From: a virus | Virus record (IMG/VR): IMGVR_UViG_3300005913_000107 | Span: 1-22,152 of that record | DNA: 22,152 bases | Reading direction: 5' to 3' (one strand) | In this document: positions 1 through 17,454 of the stretch, in pieces | Layout: the number at the start of each line of letters is the position of its first letter | Position numbering within the stretch: position 1 is the first letter of the stretch | The notes under the pieces: generated by a model | Databases searched by the model: none | Seen by the model: only the letters and a program-made list of their open reading frames with translations | What the model was told of the DNA's origin: nothing | Program-made: the position numbers and the translations under genes

Positions 1-3000
1 AATTAAAAAGTTTTCATCTGTACTGATTCTTAGACTTTCTCCAAGTCTACTTGTATTGTCGTCGTTGTTGGTCATTGTAAGAGAAGATTGTATTTGGAAT
101 GTATCTCCCGGAACATTGTCACGTCTGAAGAAAAGATGTATCATTCCTTGACCGCTAGCCGGAGCACTTACAGCCATAAACCTTCCGTCGTTTCTAGCAA
201 CTACACGATGGCCAAATTCTTGATCGTTTGCTTCTGTAGGGCTTTCAATTAATTTAAGTGTATAAGGATCATTTTTTTCATACACAGACCATTTTCCGCT
301 TCCATTGTTGTCAGCAAAAACTCTATCTCCAATGTTGTTGTTTAGTGTATCCTTGTCTTTATATTCGTTGTAACTTAACAAACTGTTGACGTTATTCATT
401 GAACTTACTCTCACTGACACAAACTTATAGACATTACCATATGAATCAAACGTTGATCCGTCTGCTAAAATTCCATTTGTTTGTATTATCGTTGTGCTGT
501 CATAATCAAAAATTATTGTACGATGGTCTGGAATTGTTGCGATTTTATAAACACCGTTAAGGTCAGCAAATTGACTGTTACTAATCAAAACAAAATCATT
601 TTTAGAAAATCCATGACTGTCTGAAAAAATTAATTCTAGTTGTGTCGCATTGTTTAATGGCTCAATGGAAACAATGTTTATTCCAGTATTTGAAATCCTT
701 TGTACGTCCCAGTCTGTGTTTTCTTTCTTGGCTATCCATATCAAGTCATTGTCGTTAATAGCATTTACATCAAGATTTAATAGATCAGTTAGATTGAAAG
801 CAGTATGCTGTACATCCTCTGCTCGAACATATCCTGCAGTTTTATAAGTCTGTACCGTGTCCCTGTCAAACCCTTCTAAGTCGTAATTGTATTTTAAAAA
901 TGTAGTAGAAGCAACATAATCAATTGGTTTTTGATATAAATTTTGTTGTTGGATTGCAACCGATCTAGCAAAGTCTTTTTGTCCTGCAGTATTGTCTAAT
1001 AACTCAATAGATTGTTTGTTGAAGAAAAATTTATCATCATCCATTTCAAACTGTATAGATTTTTTATTATCAACATTGCCTATTTCACCTGCTTTAATCA
1101 TCCATTCCGGATAGATATCTAGACTAATATTTTCTCCGTTGAATTGAGCTTTTAAAAGTCTGTTGATCGCATTAAGAGTTCCTTTTTCTCTAATAAAACC
1201 TTGATAGAATTTGTACTGTGTTACATCATTCACAAAAAGATTTTCTAGATAATTCCTGGATTGATATCCTATTAAATGTTGTGCTAATTTCTGCTGGCCT
1301 TCATCAAAGTTATTTGTTTCTAAATTATAAAAATCATTAAACTGAGATATCTTATAATCAAAATTTGGAATTAATTGAGCACGTGGTTTTTCGCTTTTTA
1401 TCTGCCAGTTTGAATTTTCAAAACCGTCTCCGCTGTTGTGATTAAATTTAGCTACATAAAAATTATTTTGATATTCTACTGTATTCCCTACATAATAATC
1501 TTTATTGTTTTCCCATAAATTAACATTTGCTTCGTCAAAAATAAATCCTGGAGAATAATAATCACCGTTCCACTGGCCTGTTTTCCATCCAACAAGTTTA
1601 AGTCTTTGTTGTCTGAATCCTGTTGTTGGATCAAAAATTATGTCATTAAAAACTGTTTTGTTATCAAAGAGTATCATGTGCTCTTTTTGTACAGCATTCA
1701 TTACAATGTTGAAGATACCTTGCTCTTTGCCTTTAGATACTATTTCAAAATTAGTTCCAACTCGTTTAGTGCTAATTTGTTTTGGAGAAATGTTACTTCC
1801 TTGAGAATCAAGTACTGTGTATTCACCTACAAGATTTGTTAATTTATTAATAACTGAATTTTTTGTAGTTAAACTAAAACCGGCGGCGCCGGCTGAAACA
1901 GTAATTGCTGAACCATTTGCCCAACCCTGTGTGGTCCAATACAAAAATTCTCTTGCCGACATTCTCCAGTCGTTTACTTCTTTAATTTCCGAACTCCATG
2001 TTTCAAAACTAAATCCTTCATTTTTCAGATAGGCTTCATACCCCAACAAGAAATTAACAACGTCTTGTTTTGATTTTAATATTGATCCGTATGTTAGTTG
2101 TTGTTGTTGTTTTCCAAATTCTGTGTAAAATAATGCTTCTGTGTTTCCAATTGTGAACTTTTTATTATTTCCATTTTTAATTACAGGAAAATATGTAAAA
2201 TATGGGCTTAACTTATTGTAACCTATAACTTTGTAACCGCCTTCTAGTGTTGAACCGTCGTTGGTAACATCAGTGTTTAATTCAATAAGGACACCTGAAT
2301 AGCTAAATTTATTAACCGGATTAGATGTTCTAAAAAGAATTTTAAAGTTTTCTTCTGGAATGAATTGCGATCCGCTTAACGATGCCGGAGATACACTATC
2401 TGTTAGAATTTTTAAATTATCTTTATCTGTAAATCCGCCTAATTTGTATGCTAACTGAACATTTAGGTTTTTCATTTTATTATAGAAAAATACAGCTGGA
2501 TCTAAATTATTCTTTATTAGATAGTTTACAACAAAAGGTTGATAGCCAGTTGTTTGATGTCTTGTAACTGCACCTGTAACCAAATCCGTAGTTGTTTCGA
2601 GGTGATAATATATTGATGATAATCTTTGTCTAATTCCAGTATCTTTATCTACTAAATTATTCGCCGTGTTTACTGTAAGTTTTGAATTGTCCAAATATAG
2701 ACTAAAAAATTTAGCCGGCTTGGTCAATGCCAACATTCTCATCACTGCAAATGGGTATTGGGCACTTCTTCTCCATGCCGTTTCGCCTGGACCTTGATCT
2801 CCAAATTTCCATTCTTTTCTAATATTTGATGAATCAAAAGATTGCAGAAGTTGTGTTCTAACAGGAGTTAACAAATTTCCATTTTCGTCTACCGGTAGAT
2901 AATTTGTAAGACCTGTTCTGGTGTATCTTGCTTTTGTTGTTTGAGTGTGTTTGTCGTAACCTGCTTCTAGGTCTTGCCACATTACAATGTTACCTGCCGA

Positions 3001-6000
3001 GTAAGGAGCCGGACCGTAATTTGTTTCCCAAGTACTAGGTTTTTCCGAATACCCTAACATCTCCCATGGATGTGTGTGAGGTTTGTCAGTGTCGTAGAAG
3101 TAGTTGTATATGCCTCTCCAATGTCCTTGAAGAAACTTATTGTTTAAAGAACTTTTGCTTGTGGAGTAATTGTATGAAAATGCATCTCCGTCAACAAAAT
3201 TTTGTTTTTGATACTGTACAGCATTTACTCCTGCCCAGTTGTAAAAATCTAATGCTAGTATTTCATTTGCTTCGTTGTTTGTATAATCTGTTTTAACATC
3301 GTCCTCAATAAAAGCGGAAGGTCTAACATCCTGCTCAGAAAGAAGTGTGCTGTCATACTCAACTTTTATATTGTTGTATATACGTTTTTCAAATTCTAAA
3401 AGTAAATTGTCTCTATAATCACCATAAGCAATAGTTCTTGAACCGTCGTGTCCTACAATCACATTGGTTGCAGTTCTGTAAGTGTTGTCTAACACCAGCT
3501 CAGGTTTAAATTTAGGATACATTCCCAACTTGGTAGGAGTAGGTGGAACAAAACTTCCAGTTGTATCATTGTAATCTTTGATAAGAACAACATCTCCCAC
3601 AGCAATAGTAGACAATATTTTAATGCTATCGTCCGTTGTGTTAAAGGTGTAGTCGGTTCCTCTGATCAATTGATTATCGTTCAAATAAACATAAACGGCT
3701 CTATTTGATAATTTGCTTATGTTAAATTGACTGTCAATTGCGTACTCAACTTCTAACTCATCTTGCACCGTATATGTTCTTGTTGAACTATTTTCACCGT
3801 ATCCAATCATGTCTTCATAAAAGAAAGGAAAATTATTATTTTTATTCTGTTGAAGACTTGAAATAATTTCATCCAATCTTTCTGCTATAGTGCCGTCATG
3901 GTCTGATCCTGTTTTATATTTGAGAACACTCTCTTTGAATTTCTGATAAGAATTACTACAATAGTCTAGTGCGGCAACAATATTACTTGGTGTATCTATC
4001 AAACTAAAGAAAGCATTTGTCAACGGCGCACTGTGTTGAAGTATTGTTCCGCCTTTTAATTTAACATTAGGTAGATCTCTTAAATTAGTATTTCCTGGAA
4101 ACTCTTCTCCAATAATATCTATATTTTTTTCATGTATATCATGCAAGTGATTTAAGATTTGTCCATATGTTAATTCGCCAAAAATAGAATTTAAAGGATT
4201 CACTGACAAATTTTCGGGTACTTCGTAAAGTCCTTTGCCTGCAACTTTTTTAGTTTTACTATATGTTAATATTTTTACCTGATCGCCTACTTTTAATTCC
4301 TTATTAAATTTTACATATTTGTGAAGTGTTCCGTTTTCCAATGTGTAATCGGTAGTTAAATTTTTTCTATTATGATTTACATCAACACTCACTTCTAGGT
4401 CGGCAATGTCCTTACTGTTTTTGTAAACGTCAATAACAAAAAGTTTTTTTTCGTCGGCAATAACATTGTGTGTTTTAATTACACGTTGTTTGCTCTGTTC
4501 TATTCTTTCTATCCAAGCACTTTTGCTATTGTGTGTTGTTTGTCCTGTTGTATAATGTAAGTGTCCAGCACTGTACAACTTTTCTTTGAACGTATCTCCA
4601 CTTTTGTATTCAAAAGAAGACGATAACAAATCCGATGCAAAAACAATATCTCCAACATTGTTAATGGTGTTATATTTTACTTTGATTCCTAGTACTGAAT
4701 CAACCGTCGCCGAATCTGACGTTTGATATTCAAAAACTTTTGCTCCAGTAAAACTACTGGATGGGTATGTTATGGTATCTCCAAATGATACGTGTTCATT
4801 ATCCCAAATGCCAAACAACGGCTGTTGATTTAATTTAGTTTTCTCTTGTCCTGTTTTCCACGTCTCTGTTGATGAATTATAATAAAAAGTTTTTCCCTGA
4901 TTGTTTTTTCCTAATTCTACAAACACACTGTCACCGTCATCTGGTGAGCCGTCGCTCTCTAATGTTAAACTAATTACTTTTGTACTGTTAACTGTAACAA
5001 GATTAAGTTTATAAATTTTATTCTTATACTGTGTGTCTGTGTCGGCGGTAAAAAGAATACGCATTCCATTGGTCATTGTTATCCCGTCGATGATGTACCC
5101 GATGTTGTTTACAATAGTAGACCCAACATCTGTAGTAACCGAATCAACAACAGTAACACTTTTCTTGGCTACCACTCCATGGTCATATAATGCTAATCCA
5201 GAATCAAATTCTATTATCGGACGCTTTGCTCTAGCTGTTTCTAATAGAGCAACCGATGACGCATTAATAGTCGCCGTTGTTTCTACTACATCTTTGTGAA
5301 ACCATCTGTTATATCGAGACCAAGCATTTCCGTCAATACTAGCTCGGTTGATTGTAATATAATCAGGATTGGTTGGTCTATAAAAAGCAATTGAGTATGG
5401 TCTCGAGTCGTATGCAGTTTCGTCGTACAATGTTGTACTTTCTTCGGCATATGCTTCCGGAGTTATTAAGTCTGCTGTGTTTGTGAGTGTTATTGATTCT
5501 CCAACTCCATCAATATAAAATTCTTTAAAAGCGTAATTAACTGTATCTGTTACATTTTGACCAAACTTAATTTTCATTCCGTTTGATAGGCTATAACCGT
5601 TGCTGAAAGTATAATTTTTACATCCTGTTATCTGTTGTGAAACATCTATGTTTGTGGCGTCTGTGATATTTTTAATTTTGATTATACCGTTCATCCCTGA
5701 ATGCGAGCCACACTGATAATGTAGAGTATCCGGAGCATTATCCGGAATAGTAAAAGTTAATGTACCGTTTTTTACACCGTTGTTAGTAACACCAGTATTA
5801 TAAAGTACACTTGTTGACCCGTCTACATCAATCCCTGTCTTATAGGGTTCCGTCATTAGATAGAAAGGATGTGTATCCGAATCCTTAACAAACTTGTATG
5901 TATTTCCTCTATACAAAGTTATTTGCGGATTGTCTGTTGTTCCGTATGTTGAAAATCTATAAGAACCTGATCCGTTGGTTGTAAGAGATATTTCGTATAT

Positions 6001-6531
6001 TGCAGACGGTCCTATTGAGCTTACAAGAATTGGGTTTGGTCCTTCCGGTAACCAATAATATTCTCTATAGTTTATTAACTTGTCTAGGTCTACTGCTGAA
6101 TTCCAGTTGTATACTTTTTCTTCGGTTAATCTACCATGGTTCTCAACGTTACCTCCTAGATACGATAGCTGGTTGACAAAGTCGTCGTATGTTGCAGTGA
6201 ACTTAACTTTGTCTTCTGGATTTACACTGCTAGTATCATTGTCTATATAAGTGACTGTTGGTTCTAATTGATAGTTTGTTCTTGCTTCACTAGTGGCATC
6301 GATGTAATTGTCTGCCACTTTTCGTGTGTAAGAATATTTTCTTCCAATAAAACCGTCCAAACGTTCTAGGCTTCCTTTTTGTATTAAAGGATCTAGTGTT
6401 GACGACAGGAATCGTTGATTGTTATCTGTTCTGTAGTAGGCCGGTAAATGCCCGACCGTTCTTCGGTAGCTTCTTCCGTCTTTGTCTGTGACTACTTCTA
6501 AATTTCTTGTAGATTGATTATCATCTGCCAT
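1..6531 (-). CDS. Giant virion structural protein, probably baseplate or tail periphery (3' end outside window)
   Basis: The reading frame is open for 2177 codons from an ATG at 6531 to the left edge with no stop seen, so the C terminus is missing. The start lies two bases after the gp6 stop, in the place T4 uses for wedge gene 7, but no convincing gp7 similarity was recognised. Modules that can be seen are: a cupredoxin-like segment at about residues 195-290 (His221 in DTHPFYLM, then Cys274, His277 and Met280 in HYQCGSHSGMNG); a segment near 1018-1050 with GHDGSRTIAYGDYRDN, a type I recall from marine T4-like phage structural proteins; a CBM5/12-like aromatic motif at about 1673-1709 (Trp-Tyr-Tyr-Tyr-Tyr-Trp spacing); and the start of an FG-GAP-like beta-propeller at about 2104-2177 (QEFGHRVVARNDGRFMAVSAP, then SRLGESLRIS). 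Size, mosaic build and operon position point to a large wedge or fibre-network protein. The exact role is unknown. Confidence 0.85.
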   Translation of the reverse strand, partial: MADDNQSTRNLEVVTDKDGRSYRRTVGHLPAYYRTDNNQRFLSSTLDPLIQKGSLERLDGFIGRKYSYTRKVADNYIDATSEARTNYQLEPTVTYIDNDTSSVNPEDKVKFTATYDDFVNQLSYLGGNVENHGRLTEEKVYNWNSAVDLDKLINYREYYWLPEGPNPILVSSIGPSAIYEISLTTNGSGSYRFSTYGTTDNPQITLYRGNTYKFVKDSDTHPFYLMTEPYKTGIDVDGSTSVLYNTGVTNNGVKNGTLTFTIPDNAPDTLHYQCGSHSGMNGIIKIKNITDATNIDVSQQITGCKNYTFSNGYSLSNGMKIKFGQNVTDTVNYAFKEFYIDGVGESITLTNTADLITPEAYAEESTTLYDETAYDSRPYSIAFYRPTNPDYITINRASIDGNAWSRYNRWFHKDVVETTATINASSVALLETARAKRPIIEFDSGLALYDHGVVAKKSVTVVDSVTTDVGSTIVNNIGYIIDGITMTNGMRILFTADTDTQYKNKIYKLNLVTVNSTKVISLTLESDGSPDDGDSVFVELGKNNQGKTFYYNSSTETWKTGQEKTKLNQQPLFGIWDNEHVSFGDTITYPSSSFTGAKVFEYQTSDSATVDSVLGIKVKYNTINNVGDIVFASDLLSSSFEYKSGDTFKEKLYSAGHLHYTTGQTTHNSKSAWIERIEQSKQRVIKTHNVIADEKKLFVIDVYKNSKDIADLEVSVDVNHNRKNLTTDYTLENGTLHKYVKFNKELKVGDQVKILTYSKTKKVAGKGLYEVPENLSVNPLNSIFGELTYGQILNHLHDIHEKNIDIIGEEFPGNTNLRDLPNVKLKGGTILQHSAPLTNAFFSLIDTPSNIVAALDYCSNSYQKFKESVLKYKTGSDHDGTIAERLDEIISSLQQNKNNNFPFFYEDMIGYGENSSTRTYTVQDELEVEYAIDSQFNISKLSNRAVYVYLNDNQLIRGTDYTFNTTDDSIKILSTIAVGDVVLIKDYNDTTGSFVPPTPTKLGMYPKFKPELVLDNTYRTATNVIVGHDGSRTIAYGDYRDNLLLEFEKRIYNNIKVEYDSTLLSEQDVRPSAFIEDDVKTDYTNNEANEILALDFYNWAGVNAVQYQKQNFVDGDAFSYNYSTSKSSLNNKFLQGHWRGIYNYFYDTDKPHTHPWEMLGYSEKPSTWETNYGPAPYSAGNIVMWQDLEAGYDKHTQTTKARYTRTGLTNYLPVDENGNLLTPVRTQLLQSFDSSNIRKEWKFGDQGPGETAWRRSAQYPFAVMRMLALTKPAKFFSLYLDNSKLTVNTANNLVDKDTGIRQRLSSIYYHLETTTDLVTGAVTRHQTTGYQPFVVNYLIKNNLDPAVFFYNKMKNLNVQLAYKLGGFTDKDNLKILTDSVSPASLSGSQFIPEENFKILFRTSNPVNKFSYSGVLIELNTDVTNDGSTLEGGYKVIGYNKLSPYFTYFPVIKNGNNKKFTIGNTEALFYTEFGKQQQQLTYGSILKSKQDVVNFLLGYEAYLKNEGFSFETWSSEIKEVNDWRMSAREFLYWTTQGWANGSAITVSAGAAGFSLTTKNSVINKLTNLVGEYTVLDSQGSNISPKQISTKRVGTNFEIVSKGKEQGIFNIVMNAVQKEHMILFDNKTVFNDIIFDPTTGFRQQRLKLVGWKTGQWNGDYYSPGFIFDEANVNLWENNKDYYVGNTVEYQNNFYVAKFNHNSGDGFENSNWQIKSEKPRAQLIPNFDYKISQFNDFYNLETNNFDEGQQKLAQHLIGYQSRNYLENLFVNDVTQYKFYQGFIREKGTLNAINRLLKAQFNGENISLDIYPEWMIKAGEIGNVDNKKSIQFEMDDDKFFFNKQSIELLDNTAGQKDFARSVAIQQQNLYQKPIDYVASTTFLKYNYDLEGFDRDTVQTYKTAGYVRAEDVQHTAFNLTDLLNLDVNAINDNDLIWIAKKENTDWDVQRISNTGINIVSIEPLNNATQLELIFSDSHGFSKNDFVLISNSQFADLNGVYKIATIPDHRTIIFDYDSTTIIQTNGILADGSTFDSYGNVYKFVSVRVSSMNNVNSLLSYNEYKDKDTLNNNIGDRVFADNNGSGKWSVYEKNDPYTLKLIESPTEANDQEFGHRVVARNDGRFMAVSAPASGQGMIHLFFRRDNVPGDTFQIQSSLTMTNNDDNTSRLGESLRISTDENFLI

Positions 6532-6533
6532 CT

Positions 6534-9500
6534 TTAGTAACCTGTACCACTACTTCCCGAACTCGAATTGCTTCCAGACCCGTATGTTGAAGTGGTAACC
6601 GAAGATACTGCCGATGATGATCTTGTGTTATTTGTTATTGACGTAGTTGATGTTACAACTGTGCCTGAAGCTTCTAACTGGTTTGCTCCTAAGGCATCAA
6701 TTATTGAAACATCATCAACTGTGGCTCCACTGATGAAAATTTCGTCTGACGCAGAACTAATTTGGAATAAAGATCCAAACGATTGTCCCGATTGATTTGG
6801 CACAATAACTGCTGTCAATAGATCCGGCGCAACTTCACGATGTATGTAAGCGGCCAGTTCCGTGAAATAAAAAGTATCTCCAAAATCCCAGTTTTCTAAA
6901 GCAAAAAATCTGTTTATTGCCTGTATAACTTTTGTTTTAATAATTGCATTACTAACGTTTGTATCGGGATTTTTAACAACTTTAAAAGTTGCTTGTAATT
7001 CTTCAACGGAGTTTTTTCCAAATAAGATTTTGTATTTTACCGATCTGTATATGATTTGATCACTTAGACCTTTTACAGGATTTAATTTAGCATCATAGCT
7101 TATTCTTAACTGGTCACTAGTGCTAGGAGAAGGACGGGTGCCTCCTTCTACTAACCAGGTTCGGTAATTAGTGTCGTATGTTCTTTCTAACATATAGATA
7201 TCAACTATATTGCTAACACTTGGATCTATTCTAGATCCTTGTCCTGCATGATGTTTATATTGAAAATCAATTGTGTTTCTACCAGATCTAACAATATAAT
7301 TTGTTGTTGTTGTTAAAGTTTGTGTTGTAGAACTATATTTCTTGATGACATCTTCAGCAGGATCACTAAAATAAAACAACTGGCCGTCGGTGTATGTGCC
7401 CGGCACAATAATATCTATTTCGTTTGCTGTTACAACAAAGTTAGATGCGTCATACGGCTTAAATCTTTCAATGTTGTTATAAGAAATATATTTTTCAAAA
7501 AATACATATTTTGTAGTTGGTGAAACAGTTGGCTCAACAATGATATCAAATATTTCTGGATTGTCTACTACCCCGTCATCGTCTGAATCAAAAAATCCTA
7601 CTTCGACTTTTCTATTATCTTGATAACCATCTGCTTCTTGAATTGTGTTGGTCACTTGCCAATATATTGGATACCCTACAGCAGTTGACGATGATAAAAT
7701 TAAATTATTTTTTAAAACTTTTACATAATCTTTTACTAATTGTCCTGTTCTGTAATCATAAATTCTTTCTTCGATATCATAATGAAATTTATTTTGTCCT
7801 TCCGATTCAAAAAGATATTTTAATCCTCTGTAAGTAACTGTGTATGTATTTCCATCGTTTGTAAATTTAAACCACCAACTAGCATCTAAACTAGTTTCTG
7901 TGTTGTCTCCTTCGTTTGTTAAACTGAAATCGTTTATTGTGTTCAGGTTTGAAGATGTAATAAATTTCCATTCAGTGTTCTCTGAATCAAATCTTAATGC
8001 AAATGTTTCGTATGCTTCAATTTTGTTTTGTATATCAGTTTTAAGTTCAGCCGTAAATGTTGTTAAAAACGGAGGTATCACAGCATTTACTATAGAGTTT
8101 GCTGGAACAATATTTGCTAATGTAAGCGGACCTACTCCTGATTCTAAATTACCTAAACCGCCATTAGCACCGTCGCCAACAACACCAGTTGTTTTTGCCC
8201 AAAGTCTATCTTGTGCATTATTTGTTCCCCCGGTGACTAGTCTTCCGTTTAAGAATTCTCTCGTATCCGGTGATGTAAATTTTATAAGAGATCCTGCTTT
8301 TACATATTGTAAATTATTTGTACTGTATTCACCAACTACCATAGGACCGCTGGCATTGAAATAACCTGTGTTTGTGTTTGTTCCAGTTGTAGTACTGACC
8401 CAAGTAGCACCCAGAGGTGTAATATCTTTTGTTGTGTATTTTAGATAATAAAATTGTCTCGAATATGCGTTTTTTAATTTTGCTTCTACCAATGTATTAA
8501 GTGTATTTAAAATGTCAGTTTTATTTGAAAATGTAAAAGTAAATGTTGGCGATGTTTCTTCTCTATAAAGTATGCCATCATCGGCAATAGTTGACACTTG
8601 AGAATATGCTCCAGTTGGATCAATTATATCCTTAGCCCTTGATATACCCGACGCTGTTCTGTTGACTGATTTTATTTTAACAATTTCTTGAGAAGCACTT
8701 AAAGGTACTATATTATAATCTTCTGCAGTTATCATTCTATTTTGTGAATAATATGTCTGCGGAGCATTTTCTCTTATCGAGTCGTTACTTTCTGTTGCTG
8801 AAGAATTGTAAACTGATTGTTTTAAACTTACTGTAATACTAGCAACCTGGCTTGCACCATTTCTATCTAGATACGGTAAATCAAATTGTACATTTTGTAT
8901 GTCTGTTGATTTGATAGTATATTTTTCGTTATCACTTATTCTGTGGTATGCTCTAAACGACCCCGACGGAAGGTTAGCAAAATTTCCATCACCAAATACA
9001 AGATCAACCGAATCGTTGTTTTTTGTGATCACGTTGTAAACATCTCGTTCACCGGTAGACAAACTATTATAGATTGTATTATTTCCTGCTACACTAGGAA
9101 CCTTTGTCCATAACTTTGAAACTTGATTTAGATTGTCAAGGCTGTAAAGCCATACATCGGTATCGTTAATGTTATTAACATTAATATTTTGTACGAAATT
9201 GGTTGTTGCTTGATCGATTGAAAATTCGGTATTTGTTAATGATCCTTGTTTAAACAGAACAAAAAATCCTGTGTTGTTTGACGAATCACCTGCACCGTCT
9301 GTTCTGTATAGGTAACTAAATCCGTCTCCGGGTACTGGTTGCTTTTCGTATATAGATTCGCTTGACGAAACTGTTGACGGAAGAATTTCAAAATTTCTTG
9401 TTACACCGTTAACTGGTTTTACAAATTTGTAAATTGGCAGGTCAACATTAATACTGTTTGATGTATAAACTTCTGTTGTTATTCCTCCAACTGATGTTGA

Positions 9501-10025
9501 TTCTAAAGGTTTTCCAAATTTTTGTTCAGTAAAGTTTAATGAGTTTAGTATTGATATAAATTGTTCTCTATAATTTCCGTTTGTTGGATCATTCCATACT
9601 ATTGATGTATTTGCTAGATTGTTTCCAGTTGGATCAATCACTGCTTCTGTTGTTGAAATAGAATCTATCTTTAATAAACCGGTAGCACACTGATTTCGTT
9701 TGGCATTATAATTAATTAATCTTGCTAATCTTAATATAGAATTTCTTCTTTCGGCAGTTTCTAAAAAGTTTTCTCTAGCATTTAGATCTACTCTGAAAGA
9801 TAATGACTGAGATATGTAAGCTATCAAATCTATTAATGCCACATATTCAGAACTCTCTACAAAATCATTGAAATCATCTGGATAGTTTTCTTTGATGTAC
9901 GACACCATTGTACGTCTGATGGTTTCAAAATCGTAACTTTTGAAATCAGCTTTTTGAAAAGATCTATAGATCTTTCTCCAATCTTCCGCAACTAATAATC
10001 TGTTTTGTCTGTCTGTGGTAGCCAT
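6534..10025 (-). CDS. 6: Baseplate wedge subunit gp6
   Basis: Homologue of T4 gp6, which forms the iris-like ring linking the baseplate wedges. The N terminus (MATTDRQNRLLVAEDWRKIY, then an early helical part with SSEYVALIDLIAYISQSLSF) and the C-terminal segment (ALENWDFGDTFYFTELAAYI, followed by HREVAPDLLTAVIVP and FGSLFQI) are characteristic of the family. At 1163 residues it is much longer than T4 gp6 (about 660); the extra length lies in the middle and in a Ser/Thr/Gly-rich tail of about 40 residues. The ATG at 10025 is preferred over an in-frame ATG at 10037 because MATTDRQNR is the typical start and because the late promoter at 10041-10048 would begin transcription downstream of 10037. 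No Shine-Dalgarno is visible. The start codon lies inside an inverted repeat (10022-10040). Confidence 0.93.
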   Translation of the reverse strand: MATTDRQNRLLVAEDWRKIYRSFQKADFKSYDFETIRRTMVSYIKENYPDDFNDFVESSEYVALIDLIAYISQSLSFRVDLNARENFLETAERRNSILRLARLINYNAKRNQCATGLLKIDSISTTEAVIDPTGNNLANTSIVWNDPTNGNYREQFISILNSLNFTEQKFGKPLESTSVGGITTEVYTSNSINVDLPIYKFVKPVNGVTRNFEILPSTVSSSESIYEKQPVPGDGFSYLYRTDGAGDSSNNTGFFVLFKQGSLTNTEFSIDQATTNFVQNINVNNINDTDVWLYSLDNLNQVSKLWTKVPSVAGNNTIYNSLSTGERDVYNVITKNNDSVDLVFGDGNFANLPSGSFRAYHRISDNEKYTIKSTDIQNVQFDLPYLDRNGASQVASITVSLKQSVYNSSATESNDSIRENAPQTYYSQNRMITAEDYNIVPLSASQEIVKIKSVNRTASGISRAKDIIDPTGAYSQVSTIADDGILYREETSPTFTFTFSNKTDILNTLNTLVEAKLKNAYSRQFYYLKYTTKDITPLGATWVSTTTGTNTNTGYFNASGPMVVGEYSTNNLQYVKAGSLIKFTSPDTREFLNGRLVTGGTNNAQDRLWAKTTGVVGDGANGGLGNLESGVGPLTLANIVPANSIVNAVIPPFLTTFTAELKTDIQNKIEAYETFALRFDSENTEWKFITSSNLNTINDFSLTNEGDNTETSLDASWWFKFTNDGNTYTVTYRGLKYLFESEGQNKFHYDIEERIYDYRTGQLVKDYVKVLKNNLILSSSTAVGYPIYWQVTNTIQEADGYQDNRKVEVGFFDSDDDGVVDNPEIFDIIVEPTVSPTTKYVFFEKYISYNNIERFKPYDASNFVVTANEIDIIVPGTYTDGQLFYFSDPAEDVIKKYSSTTQTLTTTTNYIVRSGRNTIDFQYKHHAGQGSRIDPSVSNIVDIYMLERTYDTNYRTWLVEGGTRPSPSTSDQLRISYDAKLNPVKGLSDQIIYRSVKYKILFGKNSVEELQATFKVVKNPDTNVSNAIIKTKVIQAINRFFALENWDFGDTFYFTELAAYIHREVAPDLLTAVIVPNQSGQSFGSLFQISSASDEIFISGATVDDVSIIDALGANQLEASGTVVTSTTSITNNTRSSSAVSSVTTSTYGSGSNSSSGSSGTGY

Positions 10026-10040
10026 TGTATAATACAATGG
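10022..10040 (-). promoter_or_regulatory. Perfect inverted repeat containing the gp6 start codon (possible translational switch)
   Basis: On the minus strand the sequence is CCATTGTATTATACAATGG: 8-base arms that pair perfectly around a 3-base TTA loop. The ATG of gp6 (10025-10023) is in the 3' arm. The late promoter box ends at 10041, so a late transcript starting about 6-7 bases further on would lack most of the 5' arm and leave the AUG free. A transcript reading through from gp25 would carry both arms and could hide it. This resembles the known T4 gene e arrangement; that it works this way here is inference. Confidence 0.6.
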
Positions 10041-10048
10041 TATTTATG
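10041..10048 (-). promoter_or_regulatory. T4-type late promoter before gp6
   Basis: The minus strand reads CATAAATA followed by CC, one mismatch from the T4 late box TATAAATA recognised by the gp55 sigma factor. It lies in the 43-base gap between gp25 and gp6, 15 bases before the chosen ATG. The downstream bases match those after the late promoter of gp48 almost exactly, which supports the call. Transcription would be expected to begin near 10034. Confidence 0.7.
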
Positions 10049-10068
10049 TGCTAGGAAATATGCGTACT

Positions 10069-10476
10069 TTAAGTTAGACGTATGGTACTGTTCTGATCAA
10101 AATCTAACTGCAATTTTTCGGTAATATTATATGGTAGATAACTGATTGTTGCTTGTATAGAGATTCCGTGATCTTCCTCTGATACTATAATCTCGTCTGT
10201 ATTGACACGAGGATCAGCATTAAGATTACGTGTAATATCGTCAGCAATAGCCTGTCTTAAATCTTCAGTCAACGGTTCAAATAGTACATCGTATATTATA
10301 GTGCCAAACTCTGGATTTTCTACCCGTTCTCCTTTTCGTATTGACAATCTATTGAGAAGATTTTGTTTGACTAATTCAAAGTCATACAGTTTATAATTGG
10401 TCTGATCTGCCTGACTGCTGAAACCTTTAAAGGTTTTTTCCTTTGTTATCAATGTCTTTCCTGTATCTTGTGCCAT
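10069..10476 (-). CDS. 25: Baseplate wedge subunit gp25
   Basis: A 135-residue member of the GPW/gp25 family (T4 gp25 is 132 residues), the protein that anchors the first sheath ring to the baseplate. The core is visible at about residues 45-70: LSIRKGERVENPEFGTIIYD followed by VLFEPL, matching the conserved R-G-E-R, NPEFGT and LFEP positions, then a helix (TEDLRQAIADDITRNL) and a beta strand ending the domain. The gene starts five bases after the gp5 stop and ends 43 bases before the gp6 start. The Shine-Dalgarno is weak. Length and motifs agree with an intact protein. Confidence 0.95.
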   Translation of the reverse strand: MAQDTGKTLITKEKTFKGFSSQADQTNYKLYDFELVKQNLLNRLSIRKGERVENPEFGTIIYDVLFEPLTEDLRQAIADDITRNLNADPRVNTDEIIVSEEDHGISIQATISYLPYNITEKLQLDFDQNSTIRLT

Positions 10477-16364: not shown

Positions 16365-16372
16365 TATTTATT
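16365..16372 (-). promoter_or_regulatory. T4-type late promoter for the baseplate operon (gp48 onward)
   Basis: The minus strand reads AATAAATA followed by CT, one mismatch from the T4 late box TATAAATA. Transcription would start near 16358 and give a leader of about 35 bases before gp48. The box and its next 15 bases match the site before gp6 (10041-10048). It lies at the expected start point of the opposite-strand early promoter (16330-16358). Confidence 0.75.
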
Positions 16373-16440: not shown

Positions 16441-17454
16441 ATGAAAAAAGTAAATTATTTGAACAACAAGGACTTGTTGAAGGAAATTCATAAGAGCAAG
16501 AACACGTATTGTTCTTTTGTAAACGAGGGTAACGATCAGTACGACCTTATAGTTCCTGATATTAAAAAGATAAATGCATCAGCTATATCCCAGGCAAGAA
16601 AAATAAAAGCAAAAAGACTTACACAAGAGTCGTGGGAACAAGCAAAAGCCGAGGGAGTAAAAAGAGCAAAAATGAGTGATTATGAAGTATCACCAAGAAA
16701 ATTAGATAAAACAGAGTTGATATTTAGAGTAAAGACATTTGATCATATCCCGGAAGAGGAAGGCAGAAAGAAAAATCCAAAAACAGTTGGGGATCGTCAT
16801 ACTAAAGTTAATTTTCCACCGTTCCAGCACTACAGAATTAACGAAAAAAATGAAAATGTTTGTGTGGGTAAAAGTCACTGGGAAGGCGGCATGTCAAACG
16901 GAAACTTTAATACAGGACACGGAAAAATGACAAACAAACTAGCATTAATGTACATGAAGCTGTGTGAGAGATACGGCACAAGAAGTAACTGGAGAGGTTA
17001 CACATACAATGACGAGATGCAATCACAAGCCTTAATGCAACTGAGTCAGATTGGATTACAGTTTGACGAGTCAAAGTCCGACAATCCGTTTGCGTATTAT
17101 ACAGCGGCAATAACAAATTCTTTTACAAGGATTTTAAATTTAGAAAAGAAAAACCAGAACATCAGAGACGATATAATGGAAATGAACAACCTTAAGCCTA
17201 GTTTTACTAGACAAAATAAAAATGATGAACAAACAAAAACAGAAAGAGCAGATAGAGAGAAAGTTATTATTGCGGAAAAAAGTAAAAAAGTAATTGAAAA
17301 AACGTATTATCACACTGCGGCCGGAGACAAAATTGAAAGAACACAACCTCTTGCTCCTGTAAAAGTGTATACTAAAAAAGCAATCGCCCAATTAAACAAG
17401 GTACTTAAAAAAAACGGAAATATTACAAGCAAAGATTTTAAAAAGATAAAATAA
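16441..17454 (+). CDS. 55: Late-transcription sigma factor gp55, enlarged
   Basis: The N terminus (KVNYLNNKDLLKEI) matches the YVNNKELLQAI start of T4 gp55. Residues 164-242 match its sigma region 2-like core: TNKLALMYMKLCERYGTRSN, then RGYTYNDEMQSQALMQLSQI and FDESKSDNPFAYYTAAITNSF. The family protein directs RNA polymerase to TATAAATA late promoters, two of which occur in this window. The protein is 337 residues against 185 in T4. About 140 extra residues (roughly 17-160) separate the two conserved blocks and include a His/Trp/Gly-rich stretch (VGKSHWEGGMSNGNFNTGHG). The C terminus is lysine-rich and lacks the acidic-hydrophobic tail by which T4 gp55 binds the gp45 sliding clamp. The start has a clear Shine-Dalgarno (CAGGAAAAT). 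It is the first gene after the early promoter; gp47 begins three bases after its stop. Confidence 0.88.
   Translation: MKKVNYLNNKDLLKEIHKSKNTYCSFVNEGNDQYDLIVPDIKKINASAISQARKIKAKRLTQESWEQAKAEGVKRAKMSDYEVSPRKLDKTELIFRVKTFDHIPEEEGRKKNPKTVGDRHTKVNFPPFQHYRINEKNENVCVGKSHWEGGMSNGNFNTGHGKMTNKLALMYMKLCERYGTRSNWRGYTYNDEMQSQALMQLSQIGLQFDESKSDNPFAYYTAAITNSFTRILNLEKKNQNIRDDIMEMNNLKPSFTRQNKNDEQTKTERADREKVIIAEKSKKVIEKTYYHTAAGDKIERTQPLAPVKVYTKKAIAQLNKVLKKNGNITSKDFKKIK

Follow-up and report, generated by a model that had tools for sequence, protein, structure and literature searches.

A probable promoter-coupled translation switch of the T4 gene e type at the gp6 baseplate gene of uncultured marine T4-like phages

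In bacteriophage T4, RNA coming from upstream folds into a helix that covers the start region of the lysozyme gene e, and a late promoter is located around the 5' strand of this helix (PMC3014915). Late RNA of gene e lacks the 5' strand of the helix, and this anatomy is matched at the gp6 baseplate wedge gene described here. The two differ in that gene e has a ribosome site of the Shine-Dalgarno (SD) type and long RNAs that are made early, whereas the gp6 junction is without an SD, lateness is expected of its long RNA too, and the product is a baseplate wedge protein. Other examples have been described in T4 soc, 49 and I-TevI and in Aeh1 mobE, where the SD and/or the AUG is hidden in a helix of the long RNAs, and in the case of I-TevI a late promoter is found near the helix (PMC3014915). 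This hiding of the start region resembles what is seen at gp6 here, but none of the four is a baseplate wedge gene. Their roles are in capsid decoration, as a recombination nuclease and as homing endonucleases. In T4 genes 25 and 38, a structure at the start region aids translation by bringing the SD and the AUG together (PMC3014915); these are, like gp6 here, baseplate or tail genes with a structured start, but gp6 has no SD and its AUG is itself paired. A published report of such a switch at a baseplate gene was not found in the open-licence papers searched.

The DNA analysed here (the window) is the entire 22,152-base record of a T4-like myovirus with 32-37% GC, which is likely to be part of a larger genome. 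A baseplate operon on its minus strand is ordered as a 299-aa structural gene (16324-15425), a gp53-like gene, a 788-aa gene, a gp5-like hub/lysozyme gene, a gp25-like baseplate wedge gene (10069-10476; PHROG 261 and 43), gp6 (6534-10025; 1163 aa; PHROG 10646, E 1.5e-286) and a giant ORF, the gp25-like gene lying 43 nt before gp6. Between these two genes, a T4-type late promoter box, CATAAATA (10041-10048, minus strand), is directly adjoined by the 5' arm of a hairpin, CCATTGTA (10033-10040), which is followed by the loop TTA (10032-10030) and by the 3' arm, TACAATGG (10022-10029), containing the gp6 ATG (10025-10023). An earlier note on this DNA had described a perfect 8-base repeat with the gp6 AUG in its 3' arm and a late box abutting the 5' arm, and its coordinates and letters proved correct on re-reading: the stem is a perfect one of 8 bp with a 3-base loop, and the box at 10048-10041 is succeeded by the arm from 10040 onwards.

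When a 32-nt piece is folded, the hairpin has an energy of -8.2 kcal/mol (z -4.0), and in contexts of 76 and 141 nt it still forms, the whole-piece z-scores of -0.9 and -0.4 being nothing special; in the read-through RNA of the window, the AUG is predicted to be paired with a probability of 1.00. Taken alone, neither the hairpin nor the box is remarkable, with four perfect 8-bp hairpins (loops of 3-8) in the window versus 1-7 in ten shuffles, and with no window-wide enrichment of box-like words. A chance hairpin, with which this abundance agrees, was considered and rejected since pairing across relatives exceeds that in shuffles, and the placement of the hairpin together with the comparative evidence is beyond chance as judged from sequence. 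On the plus strand, the same letters score as terminator-like, with 9 pairs and the tail ATTTATGTGC, and could be read as a terminator for antisense transcription; this is hardly credible, in that the region has five such sites where 3.8 would be expected, no more than three of the pairs are GC, and the T-rich tail is the complement of the conserved box.

We favour, with moderate confidence, a promoter-coupled translation switch of the T4 gene e type acting on gp6. In this system, RNA reading through from the upstream baseplate genes would have both arms, and the short hairpin would fold over the gp6 AUG, which, with no SD to help, would lead to poor translation of gp6 from read-through RNA. 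A gp55-type polymerase would instead start at CATAAATA, with the first RNA base falling within the 5' arm (about 10035), to give a predicted leader of 10 nt (10026-10035, minus strand) that is unstructured and leaves the AUG exposed. Expression of gp6 and of the ORF beginning 2 nt past its stop would then come chiefly from a late promoter of their own, out of step with the upstream hub and gp25. The start site, the folding in vivo, the translational effect and a purpose in gp6 dosage are what we infer from the features described below. A T4-type late promoter is plausible because the window also has a gene for a gp55-type late sigma factor (16441-17454, plus strand; PHROG 12791, E 2.1e-82; PHROG 234, E 7.9e-23). 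The plus strand also has an SbcD-like gene, identified by a PHROG match, which is followed by an ORF that looks SbcC-like.

Relatives were collected from IMG/VR in six scans, five by protein and one by pattern, which gave 160 distinct gp25-gp6 junctions and, from these, 145 representatives. Tested as an 8-bp box matching (T)ATAAATA, the late box NATAAATA was located 9-27 nt, mostly 14 or 15 nt, ahead of the gp6 ATG in 160/160 distinct junctions, a count that pertains to starts of one kind, as the start-finding pattern required ATGG and a beginning of the M-A-x-x-(D/E)-RQ type (but not the box) and would miss other kinds of start. This form of the late box is the one reported for cyanophages (PMC2984593). 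An SD-like sequence before gp6 was seen in only one of the 145 representatives. The box, the arms, the conservation of their pairing and the missing SD can all be read from the sequence. The one relative in which an SD-like leader (GTTGTAACGAGGAAAGCGA) was seen ahead of gp6 (L357) has no start-codon stem and is placed on the gp6 tree on a long branch beside a stemless clade.

In the cultured jumbo relatives PA5oct, SCTP-2, RaK2, 121Q, GAP32 and CBB, gp25 precedes gp6 in most, as it does here, and a GATAAATA box is present in the gp25-gp6 gap of GAP32, CBB and XbC2. The cultured relatives differ, however, in that a purine-rich SD-like sequence precedes gp6 and the ATG has neither a box beside it nor a start-codon hairpin of this kind, so the hairpin-promoter design seems specific to the marine group. 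Cultured phages were also considered as tests of conservation and set aside, the nearest having only about 40-49% gp6 identity and the design being absent from them.

In T4, the late box occupies -13 to -6 (PMC2988020), and because the box starts at -13, +1 would fall at the sixth base after the gp6 box (10035), inside the 5' arm. Spacing at other late genes was surveyed in 773 kb of the window and its relatives, which contain 72 genes with a box at most 60 nt away: the ATG follows the box by 5-8 nt in 30 genes (14 families), by 12-16 nt in 15 (mostly gp6) and by 28-52 nt in 27, while none of the 72 has a spacing of 0-4 nt. The presence of 5-8 nt and lack of 0-4 nt spacings independently support a putative late start at base 6 after the box, and, given T4 geometry, they suggest that late mRNAs of the 5-8 nt class would be leaderless or would have leaders of 1-3 nt. 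If true, this would be sequence-based evidence for leaderless mRNAs from T4-type late transcription, and it would alter late-gene annotation and how host ribosomes must start. The 30 genes in question are found in L083-L102 and L408-L427 (contigs G001-G005 and G009-G013).

Folding of the RNA from -60 to +60, with strong masking defined as an AUG pairing probability of at least 0.8, predicts strong masking in 98/145 read-through RNAs and in 1/145 RNAs that begin at base 6 after the box; the predicted masking disappears in RNAs whose 5' end lies beyond the third base past the box. The claim of the earlier note that late RNA loses the 5' arm while read-through RNA folds over the AUG is thus supported by both the geometry and the predicted folding. 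Strong read-through masking is predicted for 6/62 other late genes versus 7/10 gp6 genes in the same contigs.

Pairing of the bases after the box with AUGG is present in 108 of the 120 leaders of 14-17 nt, as opposed to 17.2 +/- 3.9 when shuffled. The arm base opposite U is A in 54 and G in 64, about half of the pairings being via G-U, and opposite G the arm has C or T in all cases but one. This pattern of C/T and A/G fits RNA pairing with G-U, and a DNA palindrome would not favour it. A dyad in the DNA where transcription starts, bound by a regulator, would account for the perfect inverted repeat of the window and for one group of relatives with the perfect palindrome CCATAGTTTAAACTATGG, but we regard it as very improbable: about half of the relatives keep the pair opposite U as G-U only, which breaks the DNA symmetry, and the arms differ between families, leaving no single conserved recognition sequence.

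The arms vary between groups and match within them (CCRUUGU/ACAAUGG, CCRUAC/GUAUGG, CCAUAGU/ACUAUGG and UCGUACAU/AUGUAUGG), and the inner pairs co-vary between the stem families as UUGU/ACA, UAC/GU, UAGU/ACU and UACAU/AUGU, the strongest being inner pair 2, which is paired in 33/46 versus 20.1 +/- 2.9. In 36 distinct anchored rows, counted with the loop swapped for a constant spacer, 79.4% of cells are paired as against 72.9 +/- 1.6 shuffled and 24-51% with the partner slid, and 19 cells are changed on both sides where 10.6 +/- 2.6 are expected, these shuffle controls being ones that ignore relatedness. The anchor is picked by the best AUGG pairing, a choice that favours the four outer pairs in native and shuffled sequences alike; the three inner pairs lie outside the anchoring. 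The stems are short, at -4 to -7.5 kcal/mol, part of the 3' arm being fixed by ATGG, and the mean energy of short leaders is -3.5 for native versus -1.3 for shuffled sequences. The alignment across relatives that had been proposed at the outset as a check did yield compensatory changes in the arms, along with G-U pairs.

An alternative in which the bases after the box are promoter or initial transcribed sequence, the pairing with ATGG is incidental and the hairpin has no role is in keeping with the conservation of the box everywhere, and of TACGCA nearly so, even where the stem is lost, and with the similar start, CTATTGATTATACA, of the upstream operon promoter. We consider it unlikely, since the core pairing occurs in just 1/48 other distinct late leaders, the inner arm letters change jointly between families, and substitutions opposite AUGG nearly all preserve RNA pairing.

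While the hairpin-promoter arrangement is conserved in most relatives by these comparisons of predicted stems, the stem is weak or absent in 47/145 representatives (about a third), with the box always present. Among the stem-poor groups are a deep clade with leaders of 9-13 nt (no stem), type D, whose stem has a T-T mismatch, and the majority of the 24-27 nt leaders. On a quick tree, about 27 changes between the strong and the weak state of the stem are counted against a shuffled mean of 40. The earlier note had taken relatives with the promoter kept and the stem lost as speaking against its reading, and this holds for part of the group, the box being retained in 160/160 and the stem weak or missing in roughly one third. 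Some relatives with long leaders fold the hairpin upstream of the AUG rather than over it, and this, like the location of the hairpin at an internal operon boundary, would suit an element between gp25 and gp6 that acts in RNA processing, stability or pausing and whose main effect is not a block of translation. Such an element is decidedly unlikely, because the stem ends exactly on AUGG in most relatives, as is expected for masking and unneeded for processing, and a search against Rfam gave no match.

Stem types A and B are intermixed on the gp6 tree, with 24-26 changes between them, at least 9-11 of which are forced by well supported branches. This intermixing suggests that the promoter-hairpin leader is a cassette exchanged between phages by recombination, and because the differences from A to B are read as cassette exchange, they were not counted as many independent events. 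A wider reading, which we put forward only tentatively, is that these marine phages rely on leaderless or near-leaderless mRNAs for much of their late expression and that the exchanged gp6 cassette, by linking translation to the promoter of origin, may set baseplate wedge stoichiometry.

As mentioned above, the long RNAs of T4 gene e are made early, and the earlier note had drawn its parallel with gene e as a means of keeping lysozyme off early. The sequence evidence speaks against this part of the parallel in the window, where the upstream baseplate operon is opened by a second late box, AATAAATA (16365-16372, minus strand), with the same promoter in relatives, and where a scan for early or host-type promoters on the operon strand yields chance level only. 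The two boxes, at 16372-16365 and 10048-10041, are the only exact NATAAATA boxes on the minus strand of the whole window, and they stand 40 nt ahead of the first operon gene and 15 nt ahead of gp6, respectively; the former is likely to be the source of read-through RNA into gp6. With the upstream genes served by a late box and no host-type promoter above chance, both RNAs would be late, so the hairpin would not postpone gp6 but make it dependent on the promoter it has for itself, and this role fits better than the silencing of an early RNA.

A gene e-type combination of promoter and start-codon hairpin on gp6 of T4-like phages in this large, uncultured marine group would be a known T4 trick used on a new class of gene. 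If true, a timing device familiar from T4 textbooks would also serve to control a baseplate gene by promoter, without any Shine-Dalgarno, and the switch would be one that operates in an abundant uncultured marine phage group.

The giant ORF that follows gp6 (1-6531, minus strand; >2,177 aa) runs off the record, and its ATG is located 2 nt past the gp6 stop (TAAAGATGG). It may be a gp7-like baseplate protein whose translation is coupled to that of gp6. A TACGCA element (10061-10066, minus strand) lies 18 nt upstream of the gp6 box, at about -31 to -26, and TRYGC is found at exactly this distance in 113/145 relatives. In the promoter of the first operon gene (AGTGCGCC, before a gene of 277-300 aa), GCGC is located 17-18 nt from the box. 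Descriptions of T4 late promoters give them no -35 element, and the TACGCA/TRYGC element that precedes the gp6 box may act as an activator site at -30.
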